A stretch of 64,000 bases of DNA from an uncultured Aquitalea sp. (lineage in GTDB: Bacteria; Pseudomonadota; Gammaproteobacteria; Burkholderiales; Chromobacteriaceae): positions 62,001-126,000 of the forward strand of contig NZ_CAMFLA010000009.1 in assembly GCF_945957525.1 (NCBI RefSeq), given 5' to 3'. The notes beneath the pieces were generated by a model. The model worked only from the letters and a program-made list of their open reading frames with translations. It was not told where the DNA came from and ran no database searches. Positions within the stretch are counted from its first letter, which is position 1; each line of letters starts with the position of its first letter. The translations under genes were made by a program, and so were the position numbers. This document shows, one piece after another, positions 3,363-59,484 of the stretch.

Positions 3363-4388
3363 TCAGTGCAGCAGATGCATGATGCCGCTATTGATCAGCG
3401 TGCCGCCCACCAGCAACCAGGCAAACAGGATGGTGGCGAGCACCAAGGGGCGGGCACCGGCCTGACGGATGGCGGAGACGTGGGTGGTAAGACCCAGCGC
3501 GCCCATGGCCATGGCCAGCACTAGATTGTCCAGCGCAATCAGTTGATCCACTACATGGACCGGCAACAGGTGCAGCGAGTTGAAGCCGGCCATGCCGAGG
3601 AAGAGCACGGCGAACCAGGGAATGGTGATGCTGCGTTTTTCCTGCTGGCCGCCGCTGTGGCGGCGGGACAGCCAGGCCGACAGGATCACCAGGAAGGGGG
3701 CCAGCATCATCACGCGGATCATCTTGGTGATGACGGCGCTGGTGGCGGCGGTTTCGCTGACCGCGCGGCCGGCGGCCACGGCTTGCGCCACTTCATGCAC
3801 GGTGGAGCCAGTGAATACGCCGTAAGCGAATTCGGATACGCCAAGGTGCTCGATGGCGGCGTACATTACCGGGTAGAGGAACATGGCCAGCGTGCCGAAC
3901 ACCACCACCGTGGCCACGGCCACCGCCACTTTTTCTGCATGCGCCTTCACTACCGGCTCGGTGGCCAGTACTGCGGCCGCACCACAGATGGAGCTGCCTG
4001 CGCCAATCAGGATCACGCTTTGTTCATCCAGACCGAGTTTCTTTCGGCCAACCCAGAAAGCCAGCAGGAAAGTGGAAGACAACACCAGCGCGTCGATGGC
4101 GATGCCGGCCACGCCCACTGTGGCGATGTCCTGAAAGGTGAGCTTGAAGCCGTAAAGAATGATGCCAAGGCGCAGCAATTGCGCTTTGGAAAACGCCACG
4201 CCGTGGTGACAGGACTGCGCCAGCGCCGGGTAGAGCGTATTGCCCAGCAGCATGCCGCCAACAATGGCGATGGTGAGAGCCGACAGGCCAAGTTGGCTGA
4301 AAGCCGGCAGCGAGGCCAGCCAGATGGCGGCAAGCGCCAGGACCAGGGCCAGCGCGATGCCGGGAAGTCGTTGCGATAAAGTATTCAT
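3363..4388 (-). CDS. yeiH: YeiH-family (UPF0324) putative sulfate/sulfite exporter
   Basis: This 341-residue inner-membrane protein has about ten hydrophobic segments and belongs to UPF0324 (E. coli YeiH, 349 residues). Motifs seen include [15 protein letters not shown] and the helix [20 protein letters not shown], both typical of the family. Start ATG 4388 ([10 protein letters not shown]) fits the family length; the frame stays open upstream to 4469. It diverges from a LysR gene, the arrangement seen for yeiH and yeiE in enterics, where the regulator responds to sulfite. The exporter role is a family prediction. A copy of the TTGGCCGAA word lies inside it at 4043. Confidence 0.85.
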
Positions 4389-4480
4389 GATGGCTACCTG
4401 CTTGTGCTGTGAGGCGCTTGCCAGGAAGCGCCGGGACAGTCCCAACGATACGCCGTTGCCATTCAGCAAAAAAACGGATA

Positions 4481-4506
4481 ATTTTTCTATATATAATTAG
4501 AAAAAT
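4481..4506. promoter_or_regulatory. AT-rich palindrome between yeiH and yeiE, candidate LysR operator
   Basis: A perfect 9-bp inverted repeat ATTTTTCTA / TAGAAAAAT (4481-4489 and 4498-4506) surrounds the 8-base spacer TATATAAT. It lies in the divergent promoter region of the LysR regulator and its likely target. Inverted A/T-rich dyads are usual LysR-type binding sites. The extreme AT content against a GC-rich background also suits overlapping -10 elements. Confidence 0.5.
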
Positions 4507-4545
4507 TTATTATATGGCGGTGCAGTCCACTCAAAGAGAGATCAC

Positions 4546-5436
4546 ATGGCACTACGTATCAGCCTGCGCGAGTTGGAAGTCTTCGTCGCCATTGCCGATC
4601 ACGGCACCGTGACGGCGGCGGCGGATGGTATTGGTCTGACCCAGTCCGCCGCCAGCCAGGCGCTGGCTTCACTGGAGGGGGGACTATCAGCTACCGTCTT
4701 TGACCGGGTGGGCCGAAAGCTGCTGCTCAACGAACAGGGCCGGCTGCTGTTGCCGCGCGCCCGCGCCATGCTGGACAGCGCACAGGAGATGCAGCAGATG
4801 TTCACCGGCGACGCCGGCATGCATTTGCGGCTGGGGGCCAGCACCACCATTGGCAACTATCTGTTGCCGGCGCGATTAGCGGATTTCCGCTTGCGGCATC
4901 CGGCGGCAGTTGTGGAGTTGATGGTGGCCAATACCGCCGATGTAGTGGATGCGGTGGCCACCTTTCGCGTGGACGCCGGTTTCATCGAGGGCCCATGCCA
5001 TCATCCGGAGCTGGTGGTGGAACCCTGGCGGCAAGACCGCATGTGCGTCTTCGCCGCGGCGGGCCATCCGTTGGCAAAAGGCGAGGCGACGCTGGCGCAA
5101 TTGGGCGGCGCGGAGTGGGTGCTGCGGGAGGCCGGCTCCGGCACGCGCGAGGAGGTGGAGCGCCTGCTGCTGCCCCATCTGGGCAGCCTGGGACAGGTGA
5201 TGGAGCTGGGGCAGTCGGAGGCGATCAAACAGCTGGTGGCGGCCGGCATGGGCATCAGCTGCCTGTCCGCGCATGTGGTGGCGGAATGGCTGGCCGATGG
5301 CCGGCTGGTGGAGTTGCGCAGCCCGCTGCCGACCCTCTACCGTACCCTGTTTCGCGTGCGGCACAAGGACAAAGTCATGGGGCGCGGCATGGTCAGGTTT
5401 GCAGAGGACAATCCTCCGGACGAGCCGGTCGGCTGA
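4546..5436 (+). CDS. yeiE: LysR-family transcriptional regulator, YeiE-like
   Basis: This 296-residue LysR-type regulator has a winged helix-turn-helix at about residues 5-65 (LRELEVFVAIADHGTVTAAA, then LTQSAASQALASLE) and a substrate-binding-like effector domain from about 90. The ATG at 4546 follows AGAGAGATCAC. It diverges from yeiH, so it probably controls that exporter. Related enteric YeiE proteins sense sulfite, and a sulfur-oxyanion ligand is a reasonable inference here. The effector domain retains the VLREAGSGTREEVE segment that contacts ligands in CysB/YeiE-like proteins. Confidence 0.85.
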   Translation: MALRISLRELEVFVAIADHGTVTAAADGIGLTQSAASQALASLEGGLSATVFDRVGRKLLLNEQGRLLLPRARAMLDSAQEMQQMFTGDAGMHLRLGASTTIGNYLLPARLADFRLRHPAAVVELMVANTADVVDAVATFRVDAGFIEGPCHHPELVVEPWRQDRMCVFAAAGHPLAKGEATLAQLGGAEWVLREAGSGTREEVERLLLPHLGSLGQVMELGQSEAIKQLVAAGMGISCLSAHVVAEWLADGRLVELRSPLPTLYRTLFRVRHKDKVMGRGMVRFAEDNPPDEPVG

Positions 5437-5444
5437 ACAGCCGC

Positions 5445-5453
5445 TTCGGCCAA
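5445..5453 (-). repeat. Intergenic copy of the TTGGCCGAA word
   Basis: An exact copy lies just after the yeiE stop, before the terminator. It reads GCTTGGCCGAAGC on the minus strand and is one of five intergenic copies. Confidence 0.8.
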
Positions 5454-5483
5454 GCTTGTGTCGACGGTGCGTACCGCCGGCGG

Positions 5484-5520
5484 GCAAAAAAACAGCCGGG
5501 CATGACCGGCTGTTTTTTGC
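5484..5520. terminator. Bidirectional terminator between yeiE and thrB
   Basis: The stem GCAAAAAAACAGCCGG pairs with CCGGCTGTTTTTTGC around a 6-base loop. It has A-rich and T-rich flanks, so it can end both converging transcripts. Confidence 0.85.
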
Positions 5521-5533
5521 CAAAGAGCGAGGA

Positions 5534-6475
5534 TCAGTCCAGCCAGAACTCTTGCCGGGCGCGGTGCGCTTCCACCAGGCGCTGGAACACTTTCGGGTCC
5601 TTGGTGTAGGTGAGCTCGCCCGCCATCGGCTTGTAGAGATCCAGCAGCCGCGAGGTCCAGAAGCGCAATCCCGCGCCGCGCAGCATCACCGGCCAGGCGT
5701 CCCGTTCGCCCTGGGTCAGCGGACGCACCGACTGGTAGCCGGCCAGCAGGGCGCGCGCGTGTTCGGCGCCGATCTCGCCGTCCTCCTGCCGCGCCCAGTC
5801 GTTGACAGCGATGGCCAGGTCGTACAGCAGCACATCGTTGCAGGCGTAGTAGAAGTCGATGAAGCCGGCGATGTGGTCGCCGTCCATCAGCACATTGTCG
5901 CGGAACAGGTCTGCGTGGATCACGCCCACCGGCAGGTGGTCGAAGCGGTGGCTGTCCTGATACAGCACCTCTTCGCGCAGGCTGGCGGCGTCGGCGGCGT
6001 CCATGAACTCGTACAGTTGCGCGGCGGTGTCGCTCCACCAGCGCGGGCCGCGCGGGTTCTTCATGTGCCGCGGGAAGGTGTTGCCCGCCACATGCATCTG
6101 CGCCAGCATCTCGCCCACCGCGCGGCACTGAGCCGGCGACGGTGCGGAAACGTCGGCGCCGGACAGGCAGGACACCAGGCAGGCCGGCTTGCCGGCCAGC
6201 AGCGAGGCAAACTGGTCGGTGTGATCCGCCACCGGGGCCGGGCAGGCCACGCCGTGACGGGCCAGATGGCTCATCAGTGTCAGGTAGTAGGGCAGCTCCG
6301 TCAGCTGCAGGGTTTCAAACAGCGTCAGCACGTAACGGCCGTGCGTGGTGGTGACGAAGTAGTTGGTATTGGTGACGCCAGCGGCGATGCCTTTGAGCTC
6401 CACCAGCTGTCCCAGCGCGTAACGGGACAGCCAGTCGCGCATCATGTCATCGCTGACCGTGGTATAGACCGACAT
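5534..6475 (-). CDS. thrB: Homoserine kinase (APH-fold, type II ThrB)
   Basis: This 313-residue enzyme phosphorylates homoserine at the ATP-dependent step towards threonine. It belongs to the aminoglycoside-phosphotransferase-fold ThrB family of Pseudomonas and betaproteobacteria, not the GHMP type. Key pieces are GIAAGVTNTNYFV near the nucleotide loop, the catalytic loop HADLFRDNVLMDG, and the metal-binding GFIDFYYACND. It is the promoter-distal gene of a run with DUF2782, a neighbour pairing often seen next to polA. MetX at 30.5 kb uses the same substrate. Confidence 0.93.
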   Translation of the reverse strand: MSVYTTVSDDMMRDWLSRYALGQLVELKGIAAGVTNTNYFVTTTHGRYVLTLFETLQLTELPYYLTLMSHLARHGVACPAPVADHTDQFASLLAGKPACLVSCLSGADVSAPSPAQCRAVGEMLAQMHVAGNTFPRHMKNPRGPRWWSDTAAQLYEFMDAADAASLREEVLYQDSHRFDHLPVGVIHADLFRDNVLMDGDHIAGFIDFYYACNDVLLYDLAIAVNDWARQEDGEIGAEHARALLAGYQSVRPLTQGERDAWPVMLRGAGLRFWTSRLLDLYKPMAGELTYTKDPKVFQRLVEAHRARQEFWLD

Positions 6476-6484
6476 CGTGTTCCC

Positions 6485-6811
6485 TTAGAAGCGCTTCAGG
6501 ACCCATTGCGGGATGATGATGCGGCGATTCGGATCAATCTGCTTGAGACTGCCGCTGCCGTCGTCGTCCATCAGGTAGTAGGGAAAGCCGATGCTGGGCG
6601 TCACCTTCACCATATAGAGGTGACCGTTGAGGCGGTACTCTTCCACCTTGTCGTCGCCGCGCTGGATGATGCGCACTTCCGGCTCGGCGACGGCGCCGGC
6701 GGCGTCCTCGGTGATGGTGGGGGGCGGAGGCACCACGGCCGGAGCGGGCGGGGTGGCCGCCCAGACGGCGGCCATCGGCAGAACGGCCAGGGCAAGGAGA
6801 AGACGACGCAT
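6485..6811 (-). CDS. DUF2782 family secreted protein
   Basis: This 108-residue protein carries a Sec signal peptide (MRRLLLALAVLPMAAVWAA) and a Pro-rich stretch. The conserved domain from about residue 45 includes VRIIQRGDDKVEEYRLNG, a YMVKV strand, and the ending RRIIIPQWVLKRF. DUF2782 proteins of about this length commonly sit beside thrB and polA in beta- and gammaproteobacteria. A periplasmic location is likely; the function is unknown. Confidence 0.8.
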   Translation of the reverse strand: MRRLLLALAVLPMAAVWAATPPAPAVVPPPPTITEDAAGAVAEPEVRIIQRGDDKVEEYRLNGHLYMVKVTPSIGFPYYLMDDDGSGSLKQIDPNRRIIIPQWVLKRF

Positions 6812-6833
6812 AAACGGTCCTTTGGGAAAAGGC

Positions 6834-7562
6834 TTACAGGTTGAGGAGTTTCTCGCGTTCTTCGGGCAGGGCCTCGAAACCGCGGGTCTCGTAATGCTTG
6901 AAGATGGTGTCGACGATGGTTTGCGGATCGTCGATCAGCTGGATGAGGTCCAGATCTTCCGGGTTGATCATCTTCTCTTTTACCAGATGGTTTTTCACCC
7001 AGTCCAGCAAACCGCCCCAGAATTCGCTGCAACACAGGATAATGGGGATGCGGCGGCTTTTGCCGGTCTGGATCAGGGTGAGCGCTTCGAACATTTCGTC
7101 CAGCGTGCCGAAGCCGCCCGGCATCACCACATAGGCGATGGCGTGCTTGACGAACATCACCTTGCGACTGAAGAAGTGATTGAACTTGACCGAGAGATCC
7201 TGGTATTCGTTGGGCTTCTGCTCGTGGGGCAGCACGATGTTGAGCGCCACCGACGGGCTCTTGCCGTAATAGGCACCCTTGTTGGCGGCTTCCATGATGC
7301 CGGGGCCGCCGCCGGAAATAACTGAAAAGCCGGAGTCGGAAAGCAGGCGGGCAACCTCCTCGGTCAGCTTATAATACGCATGGTCGCGCGGGGTGCGCGC
7401 GCTGCCGAAGATGCTCACGGCCGGCGTAATGCCTTGCAGTTCTTCGGCCGACTCGACAAACTCCGACAGAATCTTCATTACATGCCACGCCTCGCGCGAA
7501 CGGAAGCGCTGCATCATGGCGTAGCGGTCGCTGGTCTGCGGCAACTTATCGGACAAGCTCAT
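6834..7562 (-). CDS. LOG-family protein (nucleoside 5'-monophosphate phosphoribohydrolase-like)
   Basis: This 242-residue Rossmann-fold protein belongs to the TIGR00730/LOG family. The hallmark PGGFGTLDEMFE motif is present, along with SGGGPGIMEAANKGA for phosphate binding. Characterised members release a base from a nucleoside 5'-monophosphate. The N-terminal extension of about 45 residues is longer than in small LOG proteins and matches the longer proteobacterial subgroup. It diverges from polA, with only 19 bases between start codons. Confidence 0.85.
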   Translation of the reverse strand: MSLSDKLPQTSDRYAMMQRFRSREAWHVMKILSEFVESAEELQGITPAVSIFGSARTPRDHAYYKLTEEVARLLSDSGFSVISGGGPGIMEAANKGAYYGKSPSVALNIVLPHEQKPNEYQDLSVKFNHFFSRKVMFVKHAIAYVVMPGGFGTLDEMFEALTLIQTGKSRRIPIILCCSEFWGGLLDWVKNHLVKEKMINPEDLDLIQLIDDPQTIVDTIFKHYETRGFEALPEEREKLLNL

Positions 7563-7581
7563 TTTTTCGCCTCTTTTTTCT

Positions 7582-10377
7582 ATGAAAACACTGTTATTGA
7601 TTGACGGCTCTTCTTATCTGTACCGCGCCTTTCACGCGATGCCCGATCTGCGCTCGCCGGATGGAAGGCCCACCGGCGCGGTATACGGCATGGTCAACAT
7701 GCTGCGCCGCCTGGAGAAAGAGGTACGGTTCGATTATAGCGCCTGCGTTTTCGACGCTAAAGGCAAGACCTTCCGCGACGACCTTTACCCCGAATACAAA
7801 GCCAACCGTCCGTCCATGCCGGAAGAGCTGGCGCAGCAGATCGCGCCGGTGCATGAAGTGGTGCAGGCCTCGGGCTGGCCGATGCTGATCGTGCCGGGCG
7901 TGGAGGCCGACGACGTCATCGGCACGCTGGCGCGCCGCGCCGCCGCCGCGGGCATGAAGGTGATCATTTCCACCGGCGACAAGGACATGGCGCAGCTGGT
8001 GGACCCGGATGTCACGCTGGTCAACACCATGACCAACGAAACGCTGGACGAGGCCGGGGTGAAAGAAAAATTCGGCGTGCCGCCGCGCCTCATTATCGAC
8101 TACCTCACGCTGATCGGCGACAAGGTGGACAATGTGCCCGGCGTTGACAAGTGCGGTCCCAAAACCGCCGTCAAATGGCTGGAGGAGTACGGCGATCTGG
8201 CTGCGGTCATCGCTTCGGCCGACAAGGTGGGCGGCAAGGTGGGCGAAAATCTGCGCGCCGCGCTGGACTGGCTGCCGCGCGGCCGCGAGCTGATCACCAT
8301 CAAGTGCGATGTGGATCTGGCTGCCGACATGCCGCAGGGTCTGGACAGTCTGGCCCACGGCCAAAAGGACAAGCCGCGCCTGGCGGCTTTGTTCAAGGAT
8401 CACGGTTTCCGCACCTTCTATCGGGAAATGACGGAAGGCGAGGAGACGCCGGCCGCGCCGGCCCCTGCGCCGCAGGCACCTCTGGCGCCGCAAGGCGGCA
8501 TGGACGATCTGTTCGCCAATCCCGCGCCAGCGCCGCAGGCTGCGCCCGAGGCCGCGCCGCGCCCACAGCGCGAGCGCCGCTATGAAACGCTGTTTGACGA
8601 AGCGCGGCTGAGCGCTTGGCTGGACAAGCTGCGCACGGCCAGGCTGGTGTCGCTGGATACCGAAACCACCAGCCTGGACCCGATGCTGGCCCGGCTGGTG
8701 GGCATCAGCTTTTCCGTGGAAGAGGGCGAGGCCGCCTATCTGCCGCTGGCGCACCATTACGCCGGCGCGCCGGATCAATTATCGCTGGATACCGCGCTGG
8801 CACTGCTCAAGCCCTGGCTTGAGGACGGCAACAGCGCTAAATGCGGCCAGAACCTCAAGTACGACCGGCACGTGTTCGCCAATCACGGCATCCGGCTTGC
8901 CGGCGTGCGCGATGACTCCATGTTGGCTTCCTACGTGCTGGAAAGCCATCAACGCCACAATATGGATGATCTGGCCGCCCGCCATCTGGGCGAAACCACG
9001 GTCAGCTATGAGGACATCTGCGGCAAAGGCGCCAAGCAGATCGGCTTTGGCGAGGTGGACGTCGCCATCGCCGCCAATTACGCGGCGGAAGACGCCGATA
9101 TCACGCTGCGGCTGAACCACTATTTTGCCGGCCAGTTGCAAGGCCGGCTGGCCGAGGTGTACCGCGATATCGAACTGCCGGTGGCCGAGGTACTGTTCAC
9201 CATGGAGCGGCATGGCGTGCTGATCGACCGCGAGCAGCTGGCCAGCCAGAGCCACCAGCTGGGCAGTGAAATGCTGCGGCTGGAGGCGCAGGCGTACGAG
9301 CTGGCCGGCCAGCCCTTCAATCTCAACTCGCCCAAGCAATTGCAGGAAATCCTCTTCGGCAAACTGGGCATTCCCACCAAGGGCGTGAAGAAAACGCCGT
9401 CCGGCGGTTACTCCACGGATGAGTCGGTGCTGGAAACCCTGGCGCTGGACCATCCGCTGCCCAAGTGCATCCTGGAATACCGCAGTCTCGCCAAGCTCAA
9501 GTCCACCTATACCGACAAGCTGCCCACGCTGATCAATCCGGATACCGGCCGTGTGCATACCAATTACGCGCAGGCGGTAGCGATTACCGGCCGCCTGGCC
9601 AGTTCCGATCCCAATTTGCAGAACATTCCCGTGCGGACGGTGGAAGGTCGTCGAGTGCGCGAAGCCTTTATCGCGCCTCCTGGTTGCCAGATCGTCAGCG
9701 CCGACTATTCGCAGATCGAGCTGCGCATCATGGCGCACCTGTCCGGCGACGAGGGCATGCTGGCCGCTTTCGCCAGCGGCGAGGACATCCACCGCGCCAC
9801 GGCGGCCGAAGTGTTCGGCGTGACGCTGGAGCAGGTGACGTCCGACCAGCGCCGCGCCGCCAAGGCCATCAACTTCGGCCTGATCTACGGCATGAGCGCC
9901 TTTGGGCTGGCGGCCCAGCTGGACATAGAACGCAGCGCGGCCCAGCAGTACATCGACCGCTATTTCATGCGCTATCCCGGTGTGGCCGAATACATGCAAA
10001 CCACGCGTGAAACGGCGCGGGAGCAAGGCTATGTGGAAACGGTTTTCGGCCGACGTCTCTATCTGCCGGAAATCCGCCTCTCCAACCCGGCGCGGCGCGC
10101 CGGGGCCGAACGCGCGGCCATCAACGCGCCCATGCAGGGCACGGCGGCGGACCTGATCAAACTGGCGATGATCGCCGTGCAGCAGTGGCTGAGCAACGAT
10201 GGCATGGCCAGCAAGCTCATCATGCAGGTGCATGACGAACTGGTGCTGGAGGTGCCGGAAGCGGAGCTGGCTGTGGTAAAGCAACGCCTGCCGGAAATCA
10301 TGGCCGGCGTCGCCAGTCTCAAGGTGCCGCTGTTGGCCGAAGTGGGGGCCGGTGCCAGCTGGGAAGCGGCGCACTGA
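7582..10377 (+). CDS. polA: DNA polymerase I
   Basis: This 931-residue enzyme has all three domains. The 5'-3' exonuclease/flap nuclease spans about 1-285. The 3'-5' proofreading exonuclease is intact, with its metal-binding Asp and Glu near 358-360 in SLDTETTS. Polymerase motif A (DYSQIELR) is near 705 and motif C (QVHDELVLE) near 882. An Ala/Pro-rich linker (about 290-335) separates the nuclease domains and is longer than I expect for E. coli (928 residues in total). No clear ribosome-binding site precedes ATG 7582, whose leader is CT-rich. A TTGGCCGAA copy sits near the 3' end at 10333. Confidence 0.97.
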   Translation: MKTLLLIDGSSYLYRAFHAMPDLRSPDGRPTGAVYGMVNMLRRLEKEVRFDYSACVFDAKGKTFRDDLYPEYKANRPSMPEELAQQIAPVHEVVQASGWPMLIVPGVEADDVIGTLARRAAAAGMKVIISTGDKDMAQLVDPDVTLVNTMTNETLDEAGVKEKFGVPPRLIIDYLTLIGDKVDNVPGVDKCGPKTAVKWLEEYGDLAAVIASADKVGGKVGENLRAALDWLPRGRELITIKCDVDLAADMPQGLDSLAHGQKDKPRLAALFKDHGFRTFYREMTEGEETPAAPAPAPQAPLAPQGGMDDLFANPAPAPQAAPEAAPRPQRERRYETLFDEARLSAWLDKLRTARLVSLDTETTSLDPMLARLVGISFSVEEGEAAYLPLAHHYAGAPDQLSLDTALALLKPWLEDGNSAKCGQNLKYDRHVFANHGIRLAGVRDDSMLASYVLESHQRHNMDDLAARHLGETTVSYEDICGKGAKQIGFGEVDVAIAANYAAEDADITLRLNHYFAGQLQGRLAEVYRDIELPVAEVLFTMERHGVLIDREQLASQSHQLGSEMLRLEAQAYELAGQPFNLNSPKQLQEILFGKLGIPTKGVKKTPSGGYSTDESVLETLALDHPLPKCILEYRSLAKLKSTYTDKLPTLINPDTGRVHTNYAQAVAITGRLASSDPNLQNIPVRTVEGRRVREAFIAPPGCQIVSADYSQIELRIMAHLSGDEGMLAAFASGEDIHRATAAEVFGVTLEQVTSDQRRAAKAINFGLIYGMSAFGLAAQLDIERSAAQQYIDRYFMRYPGVAEYMQTTRETAREQGYVETVFGRRLYLPEIRLSNPARRAGAERAAINAPMQGTAADLIKLAMIAVQQWLSNDGMASKLIMQVHDELVLEVPEAELAVVKQRLPEIMAGVASLKVPLLAEVGAGASWEAAH

Positions 10378-10815
10378 GGCTCTGCTCCTGCACGGCCTAG
10401 CCTTTGCCGGCCGCCTGGGAAGGCCCGACCCGACAGCTCGGCCAGCGTAGCCGCTGGGCTCCGTCGGCCGGCAAAGTCATGGGGTGAGAGGGTGCCGGAT
10501 CCGGCAACGCACTTGCTCATGCCGTCCCCTTGCCGTTTATTCCCCTTCCCCTGCCTTTTCCCTGGAAGGGAGCCTCGCTTTCCCGCGGGCAAGCGAGAGT
10601 GGCTGCAATTAGCAGAGCCTGGCCGGCACAGGCTTACCGGGTGATCCGCTCCGTCCGCTGCGGATGCCGCCCATGCCCAGAGGGCTACGGGCCGGCATGG
10701 GGTCATCGCCCGTGCCTGAATCAGAAAAAGCCGTCCGGCTATTCCGAGACGCGCCGTTTTGCCTGTCAGGCCTGCCGGGCAGAATGAGCGCTCTCTCTTC
10801 ACCCGACTTGCCGTC
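10378..10815. other. Structured non-coding gap between polA and the minor pilins
   Basis: These 438 bases hold no convincing gene. They contain several inverted repeats: a perfect 12-bp pair (CTTTGCCGGCCG at 10402-10413 with 10465-10476), a 14-bp palindrome (10493-10506), CTCGCTT/AAGCGAG (10574-10597) and CCCATGCC/GGCATGGG (10670-10701). No U-tract follows the first hairpin. I could not match it to RNase P RNA, tmRNA, 6S RNA or a known riboswitch. It may contain the pilin operon promoter, an RNA, or only GC-rich chance structure. Confidence 0.4.
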
Positions 10816-11385
10816 ATGCCGACTTTGCCAGCCCGTACGCCGCCGAGTTCGCTTTATTGCGGCCATACCTTGCCCGAGTTGCTCACCGTGCTCGCGGTGA
10901 TCGCTATTCTGGCGGCGCTGGCGGTGCCGGCCCTGCGTGACTTTTCCAGCTCCCATCAATTGGCCTCGCGCGTCAGGCTGTTGGCCAGCAGCTTGCAGGC
11001 GGCGCGTGGTGAAGCGCTGCGCAGTCAGGGCGTGGTGTGGGTCTGCTCGCTCAACAGCAAGCGCAATCTGGATATCCAGGGTTGCCAATCGGCGCGCCGT
11101 GAGGGTGCGGACTGGAGTCGCGGCGTGCTGGTATTCGCCGACAGGGTCGGCGGCAACGCTGGGCGCTATGACAGCGGCGAGCGAAGCAATCACGCGCTGT
11201 TTGCCGAAGACGGCATCACGGTGAGCGCCAATCTGGCGATCTTTGCCTTCAATGGCGAAGGCCGTCTGCGCGAGGACGCTTTGCCGCGTTTCGAATTGCG
11301 CGCGCCGGATGGTGGCTGCGTCAGTCTGCGTCTCAACCGCTATGGCCGTCATCGTATTTGCGAGAGCGAGGGCTGCTGTGCTTAG
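10816..11385 (+). CDS. fimT: Minor pilin, FimT/GspH type (Neisseria PilH position)
   Basis: This 189-residue pseudopilin has a short leader ending CG, the cleavage site, and a hydrophobic helix with Glu at +5 (G/HTLPELLTVLAVIAILA). A GspH/FimT globular domain follows, with Cys residues in its second half. Start ATG 10816 gives a 16-residue leader, normal for class III signal peptides; the frame is open further upstream. The residue after the cleavage site is His instead of the usual Phe, and +4 is Pro. It is first of five overlapping genes whose order equals Neisseria pilH-I-J-K-X. These proteins prime pilus assembly at the inner membrane. Confidence 0.82.
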   Translation: MPTLPARTPPSSLYCGHTLPELLTVLAVIAILAALAVPALRDFSSSHQLASRVRLLASSLQAARGEALRSQGVVWVCSLNSKRNLDIQGCQSARREGADWSRGVLVFADRVGGNAGRYDSGERSNHALFAEDGITVSANLAIFAFNGEGRLREDALPRFELRAPDGGCVSLRLNRYGRHRICESEGCCA

Positions 11386-11752
11386 GCGGGCTGTGGCGGC
11401 GGGTTTCAGCTTGCTGGACGCTGTGTGCGTCTTGCTGTTGCTGAGCTTGGGCGGGTTGAGTACGGCGGCCATTGGCGTGCAAGCCTGGCGCGAAGTGGCC
11501 GACAGCGAAGGGCGGGAGCAGGCAGCGTGGCTGGCGGATGAGCTGCTGGAGAGGCGAGTGTCGGGTGTGGTGCCCGGTGTTGGCCGAAGCCATGGCCGCT
11601 TTATTGTGAGTCTGTGCCAGCTGGGTGTGGATGGAACTGCTTGCAGCGAGAGCGGCGCGTCAATGCTCCGCATCGGCTGGCGCTTGCGTGGTAGCGGCTC
11701 GACAGAGGAGGGGGCGCATGTACTACCGTGGCCAGATCAGGACCCACCCTGA
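11378..11752 (+). CDS. pilV: Minor pilin, PilV/PilI type
   Basis: This 124-residue pseudopilin starts at GTG 11378, inside the end of fimT (8-base overlap). It has the short leader VLRRAVAAG, then FSLLDAVCVLLLLSLGG. Position +5 of the mature protein is Asp (GAC) instead of the near-invariant Glu, a conservative but unusual change. The C-terminal region is short and Ser/Gly-rich with two Cys residues. It overlaps pilW by 35 bases. The PilV assignment rests on gene order and signal type, because the globular part is too divergent to place by eye. Confidence 0.75.
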   Translation: MLRRAVAAGFSLLDAVCVLLLLSLGGLSTAAIGVQAWREVADSEGREQAAWLADELLERRVSGVVPGVGRSHGRFIVSLCQLGVDGTACSESGASMLRIGWRLRGSGSTEEGAHVLPWPDQDPP

Positions 11753-12554
11753 GCGCGGCTTCACGCTGAGCGAACTGCTGGTGGGAATGGGGCTGGGCTT
11801 GCTCTTGCTGGCTGTTTTGGCAGGTTTGCTGGCGCAGTTGGCCACGACCGCGCGCGACATCATGACGCGCCGAGAGGCAGCACAGGACGCGCGGCTGGCC
11901 CTGCAGCAACTGCAGGCGGACATCCGCATGGCCGGCGCTTTTCATTGCGGTCAGCTGCCGTCTCCTGCCGTCGGCCTGCCCGCGCCGTGGGCCGAGCTGG
12001 CCGCGCAGCGCCTTCCCCTGAGTCTGAACGATGGGCAGCTGGCGCTCTGGCATGGCGGCGAGGCTTGGGACGTGCGCCCTGTGCCTCCCGGCGTGCGCTT
12101 CCAGGCGCTGGCTCCGCTGCCGGCAGTGCGCGAAGGCCAATGGCTGTGGTTGGGGCATTGCGGCGGGGGAGGCTTGCTGCGTTGGGGGCGAGACATCAAG
12201 CCGGATGCGGACGGGCTGCTAGTGGTGCCCGCTTCACTGATACCGCCCGCTGCAGAGAGCGGCTGGATGTTGCAGAGCGTGGCGCTCAGAAATTACCGGC
12301 TGAATGGTGCGGCGGGGGTTGTGCAGCTGGTGGCGAGCGAATGGCGCGGTGAGCAGCTGGAGGAGACGGTGTTGGCCGAAGGCTTGAGGGATGGGCGCTG
12401 GCAAGTATTGTCCCATCGCCCTTGCCGCTGGTCAGCCGGGACCACGCATCAGCTGCCGGTATTGCTGGCGCTGAGCCTGACCAGTCGCGACGGCGAGCGA
12501 ACGTTGCAGGTGGCGCCGCGCCTGGGGACGCGCTGTGTGGCGGAGGGCGCATGA
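11718..12554 (+). CDS. pilW: Minor pilin, PilW/PilJ type
   Basis: This 278-residue prepilin-like protein has a 14-residue leader, the canonical site G/FTLSELLVGMG with Glu+5, and a long N-terminal helix. The large globular domain fits PilW, usually the biggest minor pilin. ATG 11718 follows GAGGAGGGGG, a strong ribosome-binding site. The coding end overlaps pilX by ATGA. It is expected to join FimT, PilV and PilX in the pilus-tip priming complex. Confidence 0.82.
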   Translation: MYYRGQIRTHPERGFTLSELLVGMGLGLLLLAVLAGLLAQLATTARDIMTRREAAQDARLALQQLQADIRMAGAFHCGQLPSPAVGLPAPWAELAAQRLPLSLNDGQLALWHGGEAWDVRPVPPGVRFQALAPLPAVREGQWLWLGHCGGGGLLRWGRDIKPDADGLLVVPASLIPPAAESGWMLQSVALRNYRLNGAAGVVQLVASEWRGEQLEETVLAEGLRDGRWQVLSHRPCRWSAGTTHQLPVLLALSLTSRDGERTLQVAPRLGTRCVAEGA

Positions 12555-13174
12555 GGGCGCGGGGTAGCGTGCTGCCGTTGGCGATGCTGATGCTGCTGGC
12601 AATGGGCATTATTGCCCTGAGTCTGTCGCGCCAGCTCAAAGAGGAGGCGCGGGGTGCGGGACAACTGGCCGATGCGGGTCTGGCGTTTCATCTGGCCGAG
12701 CTGGGGTTGCGCGGCGGGGAAGCGGCAGCATTGCGGCTGGATGCCGAACTGGAGGGCCATGCTGCGCCCGAAAGCTGGTTTACCGCCAGCTGCGGCAGGG
12801 AGGCGAATCCGGCGGGCTGGCGGACAGGCTTGTGCAGCTTGGGCCTACCGGTGCAGGCAAGGTTGGCCGAAGGACGGCAAGCGGTGCTGCACCCCTGCGG
12901 TGCGGCCAGACAGCATATCTGGCAGGCGGCGATGGCGCAGGGCCGTTGCCCGAAGGTGATGTCGGGCGAACTGGCCTGGGCCAACCCGCATTATGTGATC
13001 GAGTTGCTGGTAACGGCGCATCGGCAGGACGAGGCGACAGGGAGGGTGTACCGGATTACTGCGCGCGGCTGGGGGCGGCAGCCAGAAAGCGTGGCCACGC
13101 TGCAGAGTGTGTACTGGACGCCGCATGGCGCGGCGGGAAGGCGGCTGGCATGGCAAACCCTGCCGGAGTACTGA
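12551..13174 (+). CDS. pilX: Minor pilin, PilX/PilK type
   Basis: This 207-residue protein has a very short N-terminus (MRARG/SVLPLAMLMLLAMG) followed by one membrane helix. It lacks Glu at +5, as is usual for the PilX N-terminal family. The start overlaps the pilW stop (ATGA). The body contains paired Cys residues and a Trp-rich end. It is fourth in the minor-pilin operon, the expected place for PilX/PilK. Confidence 0.78.
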   Translation: MRARGSVLPLAMLMLLAMGIIALSLSRQLKEEARGAGQLADAGLAFHLAELGLRGGEAAALRLDAELEGHAAPESWFTASCGREANPAGWRTGLCSLGLPVQARLAEGRQAVLHPCGAARQHIWQAAMAQGRCPKVMSGELAWANPHYVIELLVTAHRQDEATGRVYRITARGWGRQPESVATLQSVYWTPHGAAGRRLAWQTLPEY

Positions 13175-20403: not shown

Positions 20404-21606
20404 ATGTCGCGCACCAATAACAACCATTTCGGCCTCGCCATCCTGCTGGCCGCCCTCTCCACGCTGGGGCCGTTCTCCATCGATACCTTCCTGCCAGCGA
20501 TGCAGGCGATTGGTCAGTCGCTGTCGGCCTCGCCCATCCAGATGCAGCAGGCGCTGACGGTGTATTTGCTGTCCTATGCGGTGATGATGCTGTGGCACGG
20601 TTCCATTTCCGATGCGGTGGGCCGACGGCCGGTCGTGCTGGTAACCACGCTGCTGTTTTCACTGGCTTCCATCGGCTGTGCCTTTTCCACCTCGCTGGGC
20701 GGGTTGCTGCTGTTCCGCGCCTTGCAGGGTTTGTGCGGCGGAGCGGGGCTGGTGGTGGGGCGCGCCATCATCCGCGACAAGCTGGACGGCGCGGCGGCGC
20801 AACGGCTGATGTCGCAAGTGACCATGCTGTTTTCGCTGTCGCCGGCCATCGCGCCGGTGGTGGGCGGCTGGTTGTTCGGCGCTTTCGGCTGGCAGTCGAT
20901 TTTTGTGTTCATGGCACTGGTGGGCATGTTGTTGTTTGTCATGAGCTGGTTTGCGCTGGCGGAAACCCATCATGAGCCGCATCGCACGCCGCTGCATTTC
21001 GGCCAATTGATGCGCAACTATCTGCAGGTTGGCCGAAAGCGTGAATTCCAATTGCTGGCGGCGGCGGTGTCCTTCAATTTTGCCGGCTTCTTTCTCTACA
21101 TCCCCTCCGCGCCGGTGTTTCTGATCCAGCACTTGCATCTGCGTCCGGACCAGTTCTTGTGGATGTTCGGCCCAGCGGTGTCCGGCATCATGTTCGGCGC
21201 TTTCCTCTCCGGCAAGATGGCCGGCCGGCGTGGCCCGCGTGAAACGGTGTCGCTGGGTTACGTGCTGATGTTCATCGCCGCTTCGGCCAACCTGCTTTAC
21301 AACTGGCTGCAACCGCAGGCGGTCATGCCCTGGGCGGTGTTGCCTCTGGCCCTTTACACCACCGGCATGTCGCTGGCGGCGCCGTCCATCACGCTCAATC
21401 TGATGGATCAATTCCCGGCCCTGCGCGGCACGGTATCCTCGCTGCAAGGTTTTCTGCAGACCATGATGTCCAGCATCGTGGCGGGCGTGGTGGCCCCGCT
21501 GGTGTGGGGCAGCACGCTGAGCCTGTCCTTGTGCATGATGGCTTTTCTGGTGGTGGGTTTCCTCTTCCGCATGGCCTATCGCCGCCGGATAAGCCGGCTG
21601 GCTTGA
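20404..21606 (+). CDS. bcr: Bcr/CflA-family drug-resistance MFS transporter
   Basis: This 400-residue MFS protein has 12 helices. Family motifs include FSIDTFLPAMQAIG in helix 1, the loop GSISDAVGRRPV, and RALQGLCGGAGLVVGRAIIRD. Members export bicyclomycin, chloramphenicol or sulfonamides by proton exchange. ATG 20404 gives the standard N-terminus; the frame is open upstream to 20161 but is not hydrophobic. Three TTGGCCGAA words occur inside it (20998, 21029, 21282), two of them only 22 bases apart and in opposite orientation. Confidence 0.88.
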   Translation: MSRTNNNHFGLAILLAALSTLGPFSIDTFLPAMQAIGQSLSASPIQMQQALTVYLLSYAVMMLWHGSISDAVGRRPVVLVTTLLFSLASIGCAFSTSLGGLLLFRALQGLCGGAGLVVGRAIIRDKLDGAAAQRLMSQVTMLFSLSPAIAPVVGGWLFGAFGWQSIFVFMALVGMLLFVMSWFALAETHHEPHRTPLHFGQLMRNYLQVGRKREFQLLAAAVSFNFAGFFLYIPSAPVFLIQHLHLRPDQFLWMFGPAVSGIMFGAFLSGKMAGRRGPRETVSLGYVLMFIAASANLLYNWLQPQAVMPWAVLPLALYTTGMSLAAPSITLNLMDQFPALRGTVSSLQGFLQTMMSSIVAGVVAPLVWGSTLSLSLCMMAFLVVGFLFRMAYRRRISRLA

Positions 21607-53303: not shown

Positions 53304-53314
53304 CGGAATACCTC

Positions 53315-55063: not shown

Positions 55064-55086
55064 GCGGAACAAGGCGTTCAGACAAA

Positions 55087-55125
55087 GAAAAACGGCCGCG
55101 CTGCTTTGGCAGGCGGCCGTTTTTC
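55087..55125. terminator. Terminator after msbA
   Basis: A perfect 13-bp stem (GAAAAACGGCCGC with GCGGCCGTTTTTC) has a 13-base loop. It can serve the convergent FimV-like gene too. Confidence 0.88.
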
Positions 55126-55143
55126 ATGGGTATCCGGCGAGGT

Positions 55144-55527
55144 TCAGGCCTTGGCGGCGAACAGGGGATCCTGCGGGGCCAGGCGTCGACCGTTCTCCTG
55201 AATGGTGTGCCAGACCGGCTGGTCTTTCACTTGATGCTGCACATCGCGTGCCAATGAGCAGTAGGCCTTGCTGTCGCTGCTGGACGAATAGGCGCGCAGC
55301 AGAGCCACCTTGGCAGCCAGATTGTCCGGTTCGTCGCGCAGCGCGTCTTTCAGTACGCGCACGGCGTCCCGGTTTCGGCCATAGGCCAGAAATACTTCCG
55401 CTTCCCCTACCGGATCAATGCCGCGAGCGCGCGGCTTCTTGTATGTCGCTTTCCGCCAGGCACTACGCAACCCGTAGTAGCCCGCCATCAAGCCAAAACT
55501 TGCCGTCATTGCCGTGAGTATTTCCAC
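55144..55527 (-). CDS. Short FimV C-terminal-like membrane protein (TPR)
   Basis: This 127-residue protein has one N-terminal membrane helix (LTAMTASFGLMAGYYGL), a basic stretch, and a domain like the FimV C-terminal region. That domain has DPVGEAEVFLAYGRNRDAV, then VLKDALRDEPDNLAAKVALL and the ending LAPQDPLF. GTG 55527 is chosen because GGAGGG lies 7 bases upstream; an ATG at 55575 has none. FimV proteins organise type IV pilus assembly and cell poles. LysM and the long linker of FimV are missing. Confidence 0.68.
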   Translation of the reverse strand: MEILTAMTASFGLMAGYYGLRSAWRKATYKKPRARGIDPVGEAEVFLAYGRNRDAVRVLKDALRDEPDNLAAKVALLRAYSSSSDSKAYCSLARDVQHQVKDQPVWHTIQENGRRLAPQDPLFAAKA

Positions 55528-55661
55528 TGCGCTTCCCTCCAGGACTCTCGATGTTGTTTGCTTGGTGTTATCCATCGATTATTCGGCGGGTTGATTATTG
55601 CGGCAATCCGTAGAAATCCTTAACAAAATAATTAGGACAAGCGGTTTGTGAGAATACGACA

Positions 55662-55685
55662 GAAGCCCCCGCTTGCGGAGGCTTC
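55662..55685 (-). terminator. Hairpin after aroB
   Basis: GAAGCC and GGCTTC close an imperfect GC-rich stem. The following minus-strand bases are only weakly U-rich. Confidence 0.45.
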
Positions 55686-55700
55686 CTGGAGGGGAACGGC

Positions 55701-56789
55701 TCAGCGCTGGATGAAGGGACCGGACAGGAGTTCGCGCAGCAAATCGTCAGACAGACCGGCTTGAATGACAGCCTGGCCAAGGGACTTCAGCAGCACGAAG
55801 CGAATTACACCGGATTGTACTTTTTTGTCATGACCCATATAGGCCAGCCATTGTTCGAAACCCAGATCCGGCGAAAGGGTGGGCAAGCCGGCGGCGGCAA
55901 TAAGGCGCGTGGCGCGCGCCACCTCCGCCTGGCCCAGCCAACCCTGCAGGCGGGAGGCTTCCGCCGCCAGCACCATGCCGGCGCCTACGGCTTCACCGTG
56001 CAGCCACTTGCCATAGCCCAGCCCGGTCTCGATCGCGTGACCAAAGGTATGACCCAGATTCAACAGCGCGCGAACGCCGTTTTCCTTTTCATCCTGGCCG
56101 ACGATCTCTGCTTTCATTTCGCAGGAACGGCGCACGGCGTATTGCAGCGCGTCAGGGTCGCGAGCGCGTAGCGCGGCCATATTGTCTTCCAGCCAGCCGA
56201 GGAAATGCTCGTCGCCGAGCAGACCGTACTTGATCACTTCGGCCAACCCCGCCGACAGCTCGCGGTCCGGCAACGTGCTCAGCAGCGCCATATCGGCCAG
56301 CACCAGTCTGGGCTGATAAAACGCACCAATCATGTTCTTGCCGAGAGGATGGTTGATGGCGGTCTTGCCGCCTACCGAGGAGTCCACTTGCGCCAGCAGG
56401 GTGGTGGGAATCTGGATGAACGGTGCGCCGCGTTGGTAGCAGGCGGCGGCAAAGCCGGTCATGTCGCCGATAACGCCGCCGCCCAAGGCGATCAGGGTGG
56501 TCTTGCGCTCGGCATTGGCACCCAGCAGCGCGTCGAAAATCAGATTGAGCGTTTGCCAGTCCTTGTGCGCTTCGCCATCGGGCAGCACGACCGGCATCAC
56601 TTGCACGCCCTTGGCCTCCAGCGCCCCCTGCAAGCGCGCCAGATAGAGCGGGGCAACGGTGGCATTGGTGATGATGGCCGCTTGTGGAATGGGCAGGGCC
56701 GGCAGCAGCAGTTCGATCTGGTCCAGCAATCCGTGGCCGATATGAATGGGGTAGCGGGTGTCGGGCAGGGTCAGATCGAGGGTAATCAT
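55701..56789 (-). CDS. aroB: 3-dehydroquinate synthase
   Basis: This 362-residue enzyme of the shikimate pathway has [21 protein letters not shown] for NAD and metal binding. [20 protein letters not shown] and the metal-site [12 protein letters not shown] are also present. It sits one base after aroK, and the two share transcription. Length matches E. coli AroB (362). Confidence 0.96.
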
Positions 56790-56790
56790 G

Positions 56791-57321
56791 TCAGGGGCGG
56801 TTTCCGGAGGAGGGCGGTTGCAACTGGTCCAGCAAGCGGCATACCAGCAGGTTCACGTTTTGCTGGCTGGTATCGATGACGATGTCCGCAACTTCGCGGT
56901 AAAGCGGGTCGCGTTCTTGGAACAGGCTTTCCAGCTTGGCGCGGGGATTGGCGATTTGCAGCAGCGGGCGGTTCTTGTCGTGCTGGGTGCGGGCCAGCAG
57001 ATCGTCGATGCCGGCGCGCAAATAAATAACGGTGCCATGGCTGGCCAGATTTTGCCGGTTTTCTTCGCGCAACACGGCGCCGCCGCCCGTGGCGAGCACA
57101 ATATTGTCCATGCGGACCAGATCGGCAATCACGGAGGACTCCCGATCGCGAAAGCGCAATTCGCCTTCAATGTCGAAGATGGTGGCGACGCGAACGCCGG
57201 TGCGCGCCTCGATCTCATGATCGGAATCGTAAAAGGTTTTTCCGGTTTTTCGGGCCAGTGCGCGCCCGACGGTGGTCTTGCCGGCACCCATCAGACCCAC
57301 CAGAAAAAAATTGCCTGCCAT
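56791..57321 (-). CDS. aroK: Shikimate kinase
   Basis: This 176-residue kinase phosphorylates shikimate. The P-loop is [32 protein letters not shown] and LATGGGAV bind substrate. Start ATG 57321 (MAGNFFLV) gives the family length; two more ATGs (57330, 57339) are in frame. A strong terminator-like hairpin covers all three ATGs, and its U-tract encodes the NFF residues. No good ribosome-binding site is present. Expression may depend on pilQ transcription reading through. Confidence 0.9.
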
Positions 57322-57338
57322 GTTTTCCATGGCAGGCA
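57303..57338 (-). terminator. Intrinsic terminator after pilQ overlapping the aroK start
   Basis: On the minus strand TGCCTGCCATG pairs perfectly with CATGGCAGGCA (57338-57328 and 57322-57312) around GAAAA, followed by A and seven U. It lies 35 bases after the pilQ stop. The hairpin contains the aroK start codons. Confidence 0.75.
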
Positions 57339-57372
57339 TTGTAGCTGATGCGGATGGTATCTGTCTGCGCTG

Positions 57373-59484
57373 TCAGCGGTTGCTGAGGTTGAGATCTTCC
57401 ACCACGCGCGGAGTGAGGAAAACGATCAGTTCGGAGCGATTGTTCTTCTCGGCTTTGCTGCGGAACAGCGCGCCAAGGAAGGGGACATCGCCCAGCACTG
57501 GTACCTTGTTGACGGTGGTGTCCACGGTTTGCTGATAGATGCCGCCAATGACCACCGTGCCGCCGTTTTCCACCAGTACCTGCGTCTTCACGTTTTTGGA
57601 ATCGATGGAAGGCGTGCCGCCCACCAGCAACGTGGTGTTGGGCGTGTCCTTGTTGATTTCAACCTGCATCACCACGCGGTTGTCCGGGGTGATCTGCGGG
57701 GTGACCTTCAGGCTGAGCACCGCTTTTTTGAAGGAAACGGTGGTGGCGCCGCTGGAGCTGGCTTCCTGGTAAGGAATTTCCGTGCCCTGTTCGATGCTGG
57801 CGGCGATGCGGTCGGCGGTCATGATGCGCGGACTGGCAATCACCTTGCCGGCGTCTTCGGTTTGCAGGGCGTCGATTTCCAGACCAATGGCGGCGCGGCT
57901 GCCAGCGCCGAAGACGGCGGCAATCGAGTTGTAGGCGCCGGAGAGCGGCAGGTTAACGCCGGTATTCAGCGGTACTTTATCTGTTGATAAGCCGCGACCG
58001 ACATTGAATGCCGTAGTAGCGTCTGACAGCGTACCGCCGAGAGCAGTGCCGCCGGAGACGCGCGCCACCGCCAGCTTGACGCCCAGGTTGCGGCTCCAGT
58101 TTTCATTGGCCTCTACGATGCGGGCTTCGATCAGTACCTGCTTGACGGGGATGTCGGTCTTGGTGATCAGGTCGCGGATCTTGTCGATGGTGGTTTGGGT
58201 ATCGTTGATGATCAGCGTATTGGTTTTGGGGTCGATCAAAGCGCTGCCGCGCTCGGACAGGATGGTGTCCTTCTTGCCGGTGCTGTTGTCGCCTTCGAGA
58301 ATCTTCTTGAAATCCTCAGCGGAGCGATAGCGGAGCACGAAGGTTTCAGAACGGACCGGTTCCAGCGCCGACAATTGCTGGCGGGCCTCCAGCACTTGCT
58401 TGTCGCGCGCCAGCAATTCATCACGCGGCGCGATATTGATGATATTGCCGTTGCGGCGCTGATCCAGGCCCTTGGTTTGCAGAATCAGATCCAGTGCCTG
58501 ATCCCACGGCACATCCTTGAGGCGCAAGGTGATGTTGCCGGCGACCGAGTCGCTAGTGACGATATTGAGGCCGGTGAATTCCGCGATGACCTGCAGCACG
58601 GTGCGCACTTCGATGTTCTGGAAGTTCAGCGAGAGCTTGTCGCCCTTGTACTGCGGTTTGACATTGAGCGGATTGGCATTGTTGTTGCCATTGCCGTTGG
58701 CCGAAGCCTCGACGGTGGGTTTGCGCACTTCCACGACCAGCTTGCGCTCGGTCTGATAGGAAGAGAAATCCCAGTCGCCGTTAGGCTGGATCAGAATGCG
58801 GCTGTTGCGTCCCTGATTCAGGCCTATCACCTTGTCTACCGGCGTGGCGAAGTCGGTGACGTCCATGCGGCGCTCCAATGAGCGCGGCAGGTTGGCCCCT
58901 GTGATGTCGACCACCAGATTCTTGCCCTCACGGCGAATGTCCACTGGTGTGGAGTCGGATGGCAGGGCGATTTCAACACGACCTTCGCCGGTTTTGCCGC
59001 GACGGAAGTCGAGGCCCAGCGGCGTGCCGGCGGTTGCTGCAACGGCTTGAGCGGTTTCAGCTGCCGGGCGCTCCACCGGCGTCGCGCTTTGTTTGGCGTC
59101 GACTGCGGTATTGCCCAGCTTTACCAGCAGCTTGTTGCCGTTGACGCTGGAAGTGTAAGTGACATTGCGGGAGAGATTCAGCACCAGGCGAGAACGACCA
59201 TTGGCTTCCACCGCCACCGCGGACTTCACCACCGGATTGCCCAGATCAATGAAGCTCTTGGGCAACTTCACCTTGGTGTCGGCAAAGTCGAAGGCTACGC
59301 GCGATGGGTTGGCGATGGCGAAGCTGTTGGGCTTGACCGCCGGGCCGTCGAAAGTAACCTGCAGCAATTGGGCGTCGCCGTCAGTCTGGGCGATATCGAT
59401 CGCAGTGATGGCGGCGCCAGCCTGGGCAAGGGTGAATGCGAAGGACAGGCCAAGTCCCGACAACAGTTTGATGGAGTTCTTCAT
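57373..59484 (-). CDS. pilQ: Type IV pilus secretin PilQ
   Basis: This 703-residue outer-membrane secretin has a signal peptide (cleavage near AQAG), AMIN domains (about 30-135 and 155-260), N0/N1 domains, and the C-terminal secretin domain with VLIEARIVEANENWSRNLGV and TVVIGGIYQQTVDTTVNKVP. It forms the gated pore for pili and DNA uptake. It is the last gene of pilMNOPQ. One TTGGCCGAA word occurs, in a Gly/Asn-rich linker. Confidence 0.96.
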   Translation of the reverse strand: MKNSIKLLSGLGLSFAFTLAQAGAAITAIDIAQTDGDAQLLQVTFDGPAVKPNSFAIANPSRVAFDFADTKVKLPKSFIDLGNPVVKSAVAVEANGRSRLVLNLSRNVTYTSSVNGNKLLVKLGNTAVDAKQSATPVERPAAETAQAVAATAGTPLGLDFRRGKTGEGRVEIALPSDSTPVDIRREGKNLVVDITGANLPRSLERRMDVTDFATPVDKVIGLNQGRNSRILIQPNGDWDFSSYQTERKLVVEVRKPTVEASANGNGNNNANPLNVKPQYKGDKLSLNFQNIEVRTVLQVIAEFTGLNIVTSDSVAGNITLRLKDVPWDQALDLILQTKGLDQRRNGNIINIAPRDELLARDKQVLEARQQLSALEPVRSETFVLRYRSAEDFKKILEGDNSTGKKDTILSERGSALIDPKTNTLIINDTQTTIDKIRDLITKTDIPVKQVLIEARIVEANENWSRNLGVKLAVARVSGGTALGGTLSDATTAFNVGRGLSTDKVPLNTGVNLPLSGAYNSIAAVFGAGSRAAIGLEIDALQTEDAGKVIASPRIMTADRIAASIEQGTEIPYQEASSSGATTVSFKKAVLSLKVTPQITPDNRVVMQVEINKDTPNTTLLVGGTPSIDSKNVKTQVLVENGGTVVIGGIYQQTVDTTVNKVPVLGDVPFLGALFRSKAEKNNRSELIVFLTPRVVEDLNLSNR

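Follow-up and report, generated by a model that had tools for sequence, protein, structure and literature searches.

The DNA analysed here (the window) is a stretch of 64,000 nucleotides from the genome of an uncultured Aquitalea sp., a draft of 4.05 Mb in 35 contigs (G000; the window is contig C9, 62001-126000), in which a preliminary description had noticed a 9-base word, TTGGCCGAA, and proposed it as a DNA uptake sequence of a new type. On genomic evidence, we consider it probable (about 0.8) that this word is a DNA uptake sequence in its main dialect, read by the minor pilin ComP and similar to the neisserial DNA uptake sequences (DUS), but with CCG in the place of CTG. An uptake sequence is the best supported explanation because the word is numerous throughout the genome, balanced between the strands, in excess both within and between genes and above what codon usage would give, spelled in dialects that follow the genus, and accompanied by a ComP orthologue; the same observations support the proposal of a new type.

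Number, form and distribution of the word

A recount gave exactly 33 copies in the window, 13 on the plus and 20 on the minus strand, with the first at 4043-4051 and the last at 58697-58705, as originally described, and none of 100 dinucleotide shuffles of the window reached this number (mean 0.87, largest 5). Against an order-3 Markov background, TTGGCCGAA and GTTGGCCGAA were the top 9-mer (33 copies vs. 0.85 expected) and the top 10-mer (29 vs. 0.23) of the window. In the whole genome TTGGCCGAA occurred 1,497 times, 735 on the plus and 762 on the minus strand, vs. 92 copies (42 and 50) of the reversed word used as a control; a bias to one strand, listed beforehand as a sign against an uptake sequence, was not seen. 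Scans for Rfam families and tRNAs found no match in the window.

When the window was taken together with 400 kb of the same genome (464 kb in total), the top 10-, 11- and 12-mers were GTTGGCCGAA, GTTGGCCGAAG and GGTTGGCCGAAG / AGGTTGGCCGAA, respectively. The bases around the 188 copies of TTGGCCGAA in this sample were A in 56%, G in 49% and G in 91% of cases on the 5' side, and G in 77% on the 3' side, and the full word is approximately AGGTTGGCCGAAG. Its strict part has 10 bases and reads GTTGGCCGAA in this genome; it is flanked more loosely by AG ahead and G behind, and is found on average about once per 2.4 kb, both strands included. The main 11-mer, GTTGGCCGAAG, was present in 135 copies vs. 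0.65 expected, and the sole abundant single-base change inside the 10-mer was G to T at its fourth base, +4 (55 vs. 0.64), followed by C at +3 (12 vs. 1.2) and by a change of the first base (7 vs. 0.82). Single-base changes within CCG were found 0-1 times each; the last base of GTTGGCCGAAG was changed from G to A or C in 18 and 16 copies. Moreover, we found a second form, GTTTGCCGAA, absent from the preliminary description, with 9 copies in the window and 616 in the genome (306 and 310 on the two strands; reversed control 8); none of the other 60 genomes of the family had more than 66. If the word is read by ComP, the presence of both GTTGGCCGAA and GTTTGCCGAA in one genome would mean that its ComP accepts either G or T at position +4 of the DUS. 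In nine other species of the genus (e.g., G008), GTTTGCCGAA was slightly raised, with 25-66 copies vs. 4-22 of the reversed control, possibly as the remnant of a lost dialect.

It had been stated that the word lies within and between genes and in several amino acid readings, and both statements were borne out. With the 416 genes that a simple codon-usage caller predicted in the 464 kb, the coding copies numbered 145 and the intergenic ones 43, and the density was higher in predicted intergenic DNA (0.671/kb) than in coding DNA (0.363/kb), although the intergenic number may be inflated by genes that the caller missed. In the window the copies were read in sense frames 0 and 1 and in antisense frames 0 and 2, and the 145 coding copies were distributed as 90 in sense frame 0, 6 in sense 1, 2 in sense 2, 21 in antisense 0 and 26 in antisense 2. 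The 90 copies of the first group are read as Leu-Ala-Glu (LAE), a tripeptide spelled with TTGGCCGAA in 90 of its 210 occurrences (9.8 expected), and this preference is what could suggest a mere codon, codon-pair or mutational bias. On the other hand, 60 synonymous-codon shuffles produced on average 16.6 coding copies, with 27 as the largest value, a control word of the same composition was far rarer in the genome, as reported above, and the intergenic density, with the reservation made for missed genes, points in the same direction; we regard a compositional origin as scarcely credible. The LAE frame dominates, yet the copies overall exceed the codon-usage null. A strong bias to one frame had also been named beforehand as a contrary sign, and formally it is there, but excerpts of PMC2346458 report, for every uptake sequence examined there, that one orientation is found in the reading frame more often than the other.

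The abundance and regular spacing of the word could also be expected of a site for chromosome organisation or recombination, similar to KOPS, Chi or matS. In 320 kb of contig C1, in which the sign of the GC skew was the same in all 16 bins, the plus strand had 60 copies and the minus strand 66, showing no replication-strand bias over this stretch, and the copies per bin were unclustered (variance/mean 0.72-0.91). Taken together, the codon shuffles, the balance between the strands and the even spacing speak against an effect of codons, replication strand or domains. Since the end bases of the word are, moreover, specific to the genus, and the word is dense in one species of the genus and not in nine others (see below), a chromosomal site appears very improbable. 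A role as terminator was also considered and rejected, except at most as a minor side use: only 5 pairs of copies lay less than 60 bases apart in the 464 kb, vs. 4.6 expected, 4 of them inverted at 12-18 bases. One of these, at L019:8936 (contig C3), consists of two inverted copies 18 bases apart followed by TTTT, similar to a terminator hairpin, and three further inverted pairs were spaced by 12-17 bases. The longest word-free gap in the 320 kb (14.5 kb, C1:34215-48762, GC 0.555) spans dense short genes resembling, by eye, a ribosomal protein operon; an elongation factor Tu-like gene marks its end.

Dialects across the family and the order

The word was counted in a family set of 61 genomes from 10 genera, numbered g1 (the genus of the window) to g10, and it was also found in related genera: the shared part, AGGTTGGCCG, occurred 135-1,267 times in 23 genomes (the carriers) and 5-50 times in the other 38. 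The last two bases follow the genus, giving three end-dialects among the carriers. AA (TTGGCCGAA) is used by the genome of the window, g2, g3, g6 and g10; AG (GTTGGCCGAG) by g4, with 1,940 and 1,590 copies and 165 as the next highest count in the family; CA (GTTGGCCGCA) by all 13 genomes of g5, with 1,871-2,895 copies and at most 58 elsewhere in the family. In the nine other species of the genus of the window, TTGGCCGAA was not abundant (43-99 copies; reversed control 33-114). Among 386 genomes sampled evenly from other families of the order, the highest count of AGGTTGGCCG was 64. In two genomes of g8 (G024 and G033), we observed 92 and 85 copies of GTTGGCCGAG vs. 21 and 17 of its reversed control, with AGGTTGGCCG not raised (31 and 20 vs. 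26 and 24).

The dialects could be compared within one homologous gene, polA. The polA loci of g5 contained 41 CA words and none of AA or AG, those of g4 contained 7 AG, and those of the AA genera 16 AA, in both cases with none of the other two dialects; in 147 kb of polA loci from non-carriers, AA and CA were both at 0. The reversed control was at 0 as well. As the polA spellings follow the genus, the words differ in place within the same gene, and this would be expected under continual re-acquisition through a genus-specific receptor. The same pattern bears on the possibility that the word is the target of a DNA methyltransferase, or of another epigenetic system, that keeps it frequent. Methyltransferase-linked words of high copy number do exist, as is the case of HIP1 of cyanobacteria, likewise a highly iterated short word, but HIP1 is palindromic (excerpts of PMC4390886), whereas the word described here is not, prefers particular bases on both sides, and has a core that stays constant while its last bases change by genus. 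We consider this explanation hardly probable, with no search aimed at a methyltransferase made.

A scan with the ComP alignment (see below) returned nine named loci, and seven of these were ComP orthologues whose aligned part was identical to that of proteins of g2, g3, g4 and g6, which gave names to the carriers: Pseudogulbenkiania, Gulbenkiania and Crenobacter. GTTGGCCGAA was found at the ComP loci of Pseudogulbenkiania ferrooxidans 2002 (7 copies), P. subflava (6), Gulbenkiania mobilis (10), Neisseriaceae bacterium JH1-16 (14) and Crenobacter oryzisoli (4), and was at 0 in a Pseudogulbenkiania metagenome-assembled genome, whose locus covered 7.8 kb only; Crenobacter luteus had 8 copies of GTTGGCCGAG in 10 kb. 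The remaining two loci, from Pseudomonas (35 and 32% identity), had no GTTGGCCGAA, and one of them had two GTTGGCCGAG and one GTTGGCCGCA. The NCBI taxonomy places Pseudogulbenkiania in Chromobacteriaceae, the family that includes Gulbenkiania, and Crenobacter in Neisseriaceae.

In samples of 60-100 kb from the non-carriers G001, G003, G005, G015, G016 and G017, k-mer counts revealed no dominant word; this is weak evidence, because 60 kb of the carrier G018 did not show one either. G018 has 1,910 copies overall, and the 60 kb without any enriched word came from its contig C1 (183 kb, GC about 0.52-0.53; L034, L077, L078), which is perhaps a plasmid or foreign DNA.

The ComP orthologue and the pilus genes

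The pilus secretin and the minor pilins that were said to be encoded in the window were recovered as pilQ and a minor pilin cluster with the order fimT, pilV-like, pilW-like, pilX, comP (Table 1). The last of these genes encodes our candidate receptor. Searched against the PDB, its product matched the ComP chains 2m3k (2.8e-10), 5hz7 (3.5e-10) and 2nba (3.9e-10), with the next match at 5.4e-5, and it reached 41 bits with Pfam PF16732 (ComP_DUS; cut-off 27.3), while three paralogues of the same genome (L041, L044 and L047) found no ComP chain at E <= 10. In a phylogenetic tree, 14 ComPs of the family and two neisserial segments split from the three paralogues with branch support 100/99. A ComP match (E <= 1e-8) was present in 57 of the 61 family genomes, including 23 of the 23 carriers; the other four, which are the four genomes of g9, had neither a ComP match nor the word. 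In the ComP alignment and tree, which covered 50 of the 57 matching genomes (7 of g7 left out), the CA dialect coincides with one clade (support 100/99). In the examples considered, comP and polA are no more than 7 kb apart in g1, g2, g3, g6, g7 and g8, and not so in g4, g5 and g10. A ComP search of plasmids gave no match, and a contig scan with a single ComP query no confirmed match. Outside the window, the genome also encodes ComEC, found in 59 of the 61 family genomes and thus not separating carriers from non-carriers, and an adjacent pair of major-pilin-type genes (PF00114; L042 and L043, C1:76-79 kb).

If the uptake sequence is read by ComP, the pilin, placed at the tip of the type IV pilus or along its side, would bind double-stranded DNA carrying the word, retraction of the pilus would draw the bound DNA through PilQ, and ComEC would pass one strand inward. 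Fragments bearing the word would then recombine back more often than others, and copies would accumulate and drift in concert with the preference of the receptor. A loop of this kind, resembling molecular drive, has been proposed for the known uptake sequences.

Table 1. Pilus genes, copies of the word and copies of the second form in the window
Feature	Position	Strand	Evidence or remark
fimT/GspH-type minor pilin	10816..11385	+	PF12019 7.3e-7
pilV-like minor pilin, open frame, start uncertain	11225..11752	+	prepilin-like GFSLLDAV in translation; no Pfam match in 11327-11752
pilW-like minor pilin	11718..12554	+	PF07963 4e-5; W by position only
pilX-like minor pilin	12551..13174	+	PF13681 6.2e-13
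comP orthologue, candidate receptor, minor type IV pilin, 150 aa	13150..13602	+	PDB, Pfam, tree
pilQ secretin	57373..59484	-	PF00263 5.8e-51, PF11741
pilP	59484..59999	-	PF04351
pilO	60016..60642	-	PF04350
pilN	60639..61235	-	PF05137
pilM	61235..62347	-	PF11104
word TTGGCCGAA	4043..4051	-	
word TTGGCCGAA	5445..5453	-	
word TTGGCCGAA	10333..10341	+	within polA (frame 7582-10377)
word TTGGCCGAA	11580..11588	+	in pilV-like frame
word TTGGCCGAA	12372..12380	+	within pilW-like gene
word TTGGCCGAA	12863..12871	+	within pilX-like gene
word TTGGCCGAA	13306..13314	+	within comP orthologue
word TTGGCCGAA	19094..19102	-	
word TTGGCCGAA	20998..21006	-	inverted relative to copy 21029..21037
word TTGGCCGAA	21029..21037	+	
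word TTGGCCGAA	21282..21290	-	
word TTGGCCGAA	23841..23849	-	
word TTGGCCGAA	27119..27127	+	
word TTGGCCGAA	29146..29154	-	
word TTGGCCGAA	30095..30103	+	
word TTGGCCGAA	32276..32284	-	
word TTGGCCGAA	33983..33991	-	
word TTGGCCGAA	34774..34782	+	
word TTGGCCGAA	37437..37445	-	
word TTGGCCGAA	38205..38213	-	
word TTGGCCGAA	40437..40445	-	
word TTGGCCGAA	40941..40949	-	
word TTGGCCGAA	42506..42514	-	
word TTGGCCGAA	44115..44123	-	
word TTGGCCGAA	44223..44231	+	
word TTGGCCGAA	44283..44291	+	
word TTGGCCGAA	48425..48433	+	
word TTGGCCGAA	49097..49105	-	
word TTGGCCGAA	50515..50523	-	
word TTGGCCGAA	52910..52918	-	
word TTGGCCGAA	53288..53296	-	
word TTGGCCGAA	56238..56246	-	
word TTGGCCGAA	58697..58705	+	within pilQ, antisense
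second form GTTTGCCGAA	9355..9364	-	
second form GTTTGCCGAA	11199..11208	+	
second form GTTTGCCGAA	26927..26936	+	
second form GTTTGCCGAA	36525..36534	-	
second form GTTTGCCGAA	47113..47122	+	
second form GTTTGCCGAA	51077..51086	-	
second form GTTTGCCGAA	52692..52701	+	
second form GTTTGCCGAA	55039..55048	+	
second form GTTTGCCGAA	63075..63084	+	

Relation to known uptake words and possible history

Judged from its letters and its genomic behaviour, the word acts like a neisserial DUS and is probably homologous to it. As in Neisseriaceae, a word of 10-12 bases is repeated hundreds to thousands of times over the two strands, and dialects at the level of the genus share a core. Further common features are an initial AGG, G-A close to the 3' end, C at +9 in the g5 dialect as in king3DUS, an encoded ComP orthologue, and two forms in one genome, as excerpts of PMC3630211 describe for Simonsiella. 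By contrast, the neisserial words have a CTG core at +6 to +8, where all the dialects found here have CCG; A at +10 is reported in all eight known dialects, while here A is found in AA and CA, and G in the AG of g4; the ComPs of the family are without one cysteine of the second disulfide; and the carriers are Pseudogulbenkiania and Gulbenkiania, together with Crenobacter. Because the defining CTG core fails, we did not file the word as a neisserial DUS. The preliminary description called it a separate dialect without CTG; it is not unrelated to DUS, since AGGTTGGCCGAA agrees in register with AGGTCGTCTGAA and AGGCTGCCTGAA (AG-mucDUS and AG-simDUS) at 9 of 12 positions; in this comparison wadDUS was left out and king3DUS was taken from the wording of the paper. 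The preliminary description also postulated a different receptor; the receptor is probably of the same kind, our candidate being an orthologue of Neisseria ComP. The uptake signal sequences of Pasteurellaceae are likewise abundant words with the same genomic behaviour, but they read AAGTGCGGT / ACAAGCGGT with a GCGG core (excerpts of PMC12616744), vs. TTGGCCG here, have no ComP and belong to a different bacterial class.

Several observations weigh against a DUS-like word read by ComP. The similarity to DUS is modest: out of 20,000 shuffled words, 70 reach the same agreement in register, and 196 do so when every shift and both strands are allowed, and CTG, required in N. meningitidis, is absent from the word. 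Four pilins of the genome match PF16732, and the paralogue L044 outscores the protein of the window (80.7 vs. 41 bits), so that this model is no test of receptor identity. A ComP match without the abundant word was found in 34 of the 61 genomes, including the nine other species of the genus of the window; ComP alone is not sufficient for word abundance. Of the 50 aligned orthologues, 47 have two cysteines in the globular part (the protein of the window has three), and the cysteine in the GFC stretch of neisserial ComP is missing from all 50; neisserial ComP requires two disulfides, according to excerpts of PMC12061091. The net charge of the globular part is +7 in the ComP of the window and -2 to -4 in g2, g3 and g6, with a range from -4 to +4 across the other carriers, values that describe charge alone and not a charged stripe. 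Finally, the ComPs of the AA dialect do not form a single clade in the tree.

These same points (ComP without the word, the missing disulfide and the negative charge in several carriers) could indicate that the uptake sequence is read by another pilin or surface protein, e.g., of the FimT type, and the genome would offer candidates, with 18 prepilin-like matches, three of them in the window, and FimT/GspH-types in three clusters. We consider this unlikely, however, in view of the fact that, among the four PF16732 pilins, only the protein of the window finds ComP chains in the PDB, that a ComP match is present in every carrier and the four genomes devoid of it are also devoid of the word, and that the CA dialect coincides with a single ComP clade.

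A PolA tree, built by a quick method from 54 of the 61 genomes of the family together with 5 of 15 outgroup genomes, requires at least 5 changes for the presence of the word, and places the species of the window as sister to the nine non-carriers, inside a non-carrier clade. One origin with repeated loss fits, as the core is shared; the word may instead have been gained by transfer or regained. According to excerpts of Frye et al. 2013 (PMC3630211), an obvious DUS was missing from Laribacter, Lutiella, Pseudogulbenkiania and two genomes of Chromobacterium, and ComP from C. violaceum, and the origin of DUS was placed after that split. It seems to us evenly balanced whether sequence-specific uptake based on ComP predates Neisseriaceae, being already present in the ancestor shared with Chromobacteriaceae, with CTG and CCG interchangeable as core, and was lost several times with ComP kept; the species of the window would then be a bilingual keeper inside a g1 and g7 clade that otherwise lost the word. 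A literature search on DUS, ComP and transformation in Chromobacteriaceae, which had preprints and most subscription papers outside its range, found no paper describing the CCG-core word as an uptake sequence, and the word may stand unrecognised in Table S1D of PMC3630211, where 10-mers over-represented in those genomes are given; among the matches listed by a full-text search for its letters, the titles were on unrelated subjects.

If our reading is correct, the carriers in Pseudogulbenkiania and Gulbenkiania, with their ComP orthologues and CCG core, would change the earlier account of DUS. The 57 ComP matches of the family, which span three end-dialects, one genome with a double dialect and a number of non-carriers, form a natural data set on how a pilin reads DNA, and could show how receptor and word change together. 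Moreover, environmental, non-neisserial bacteria would become available for tests of uptake specificity, together with the 12-base tag needed to transform them.

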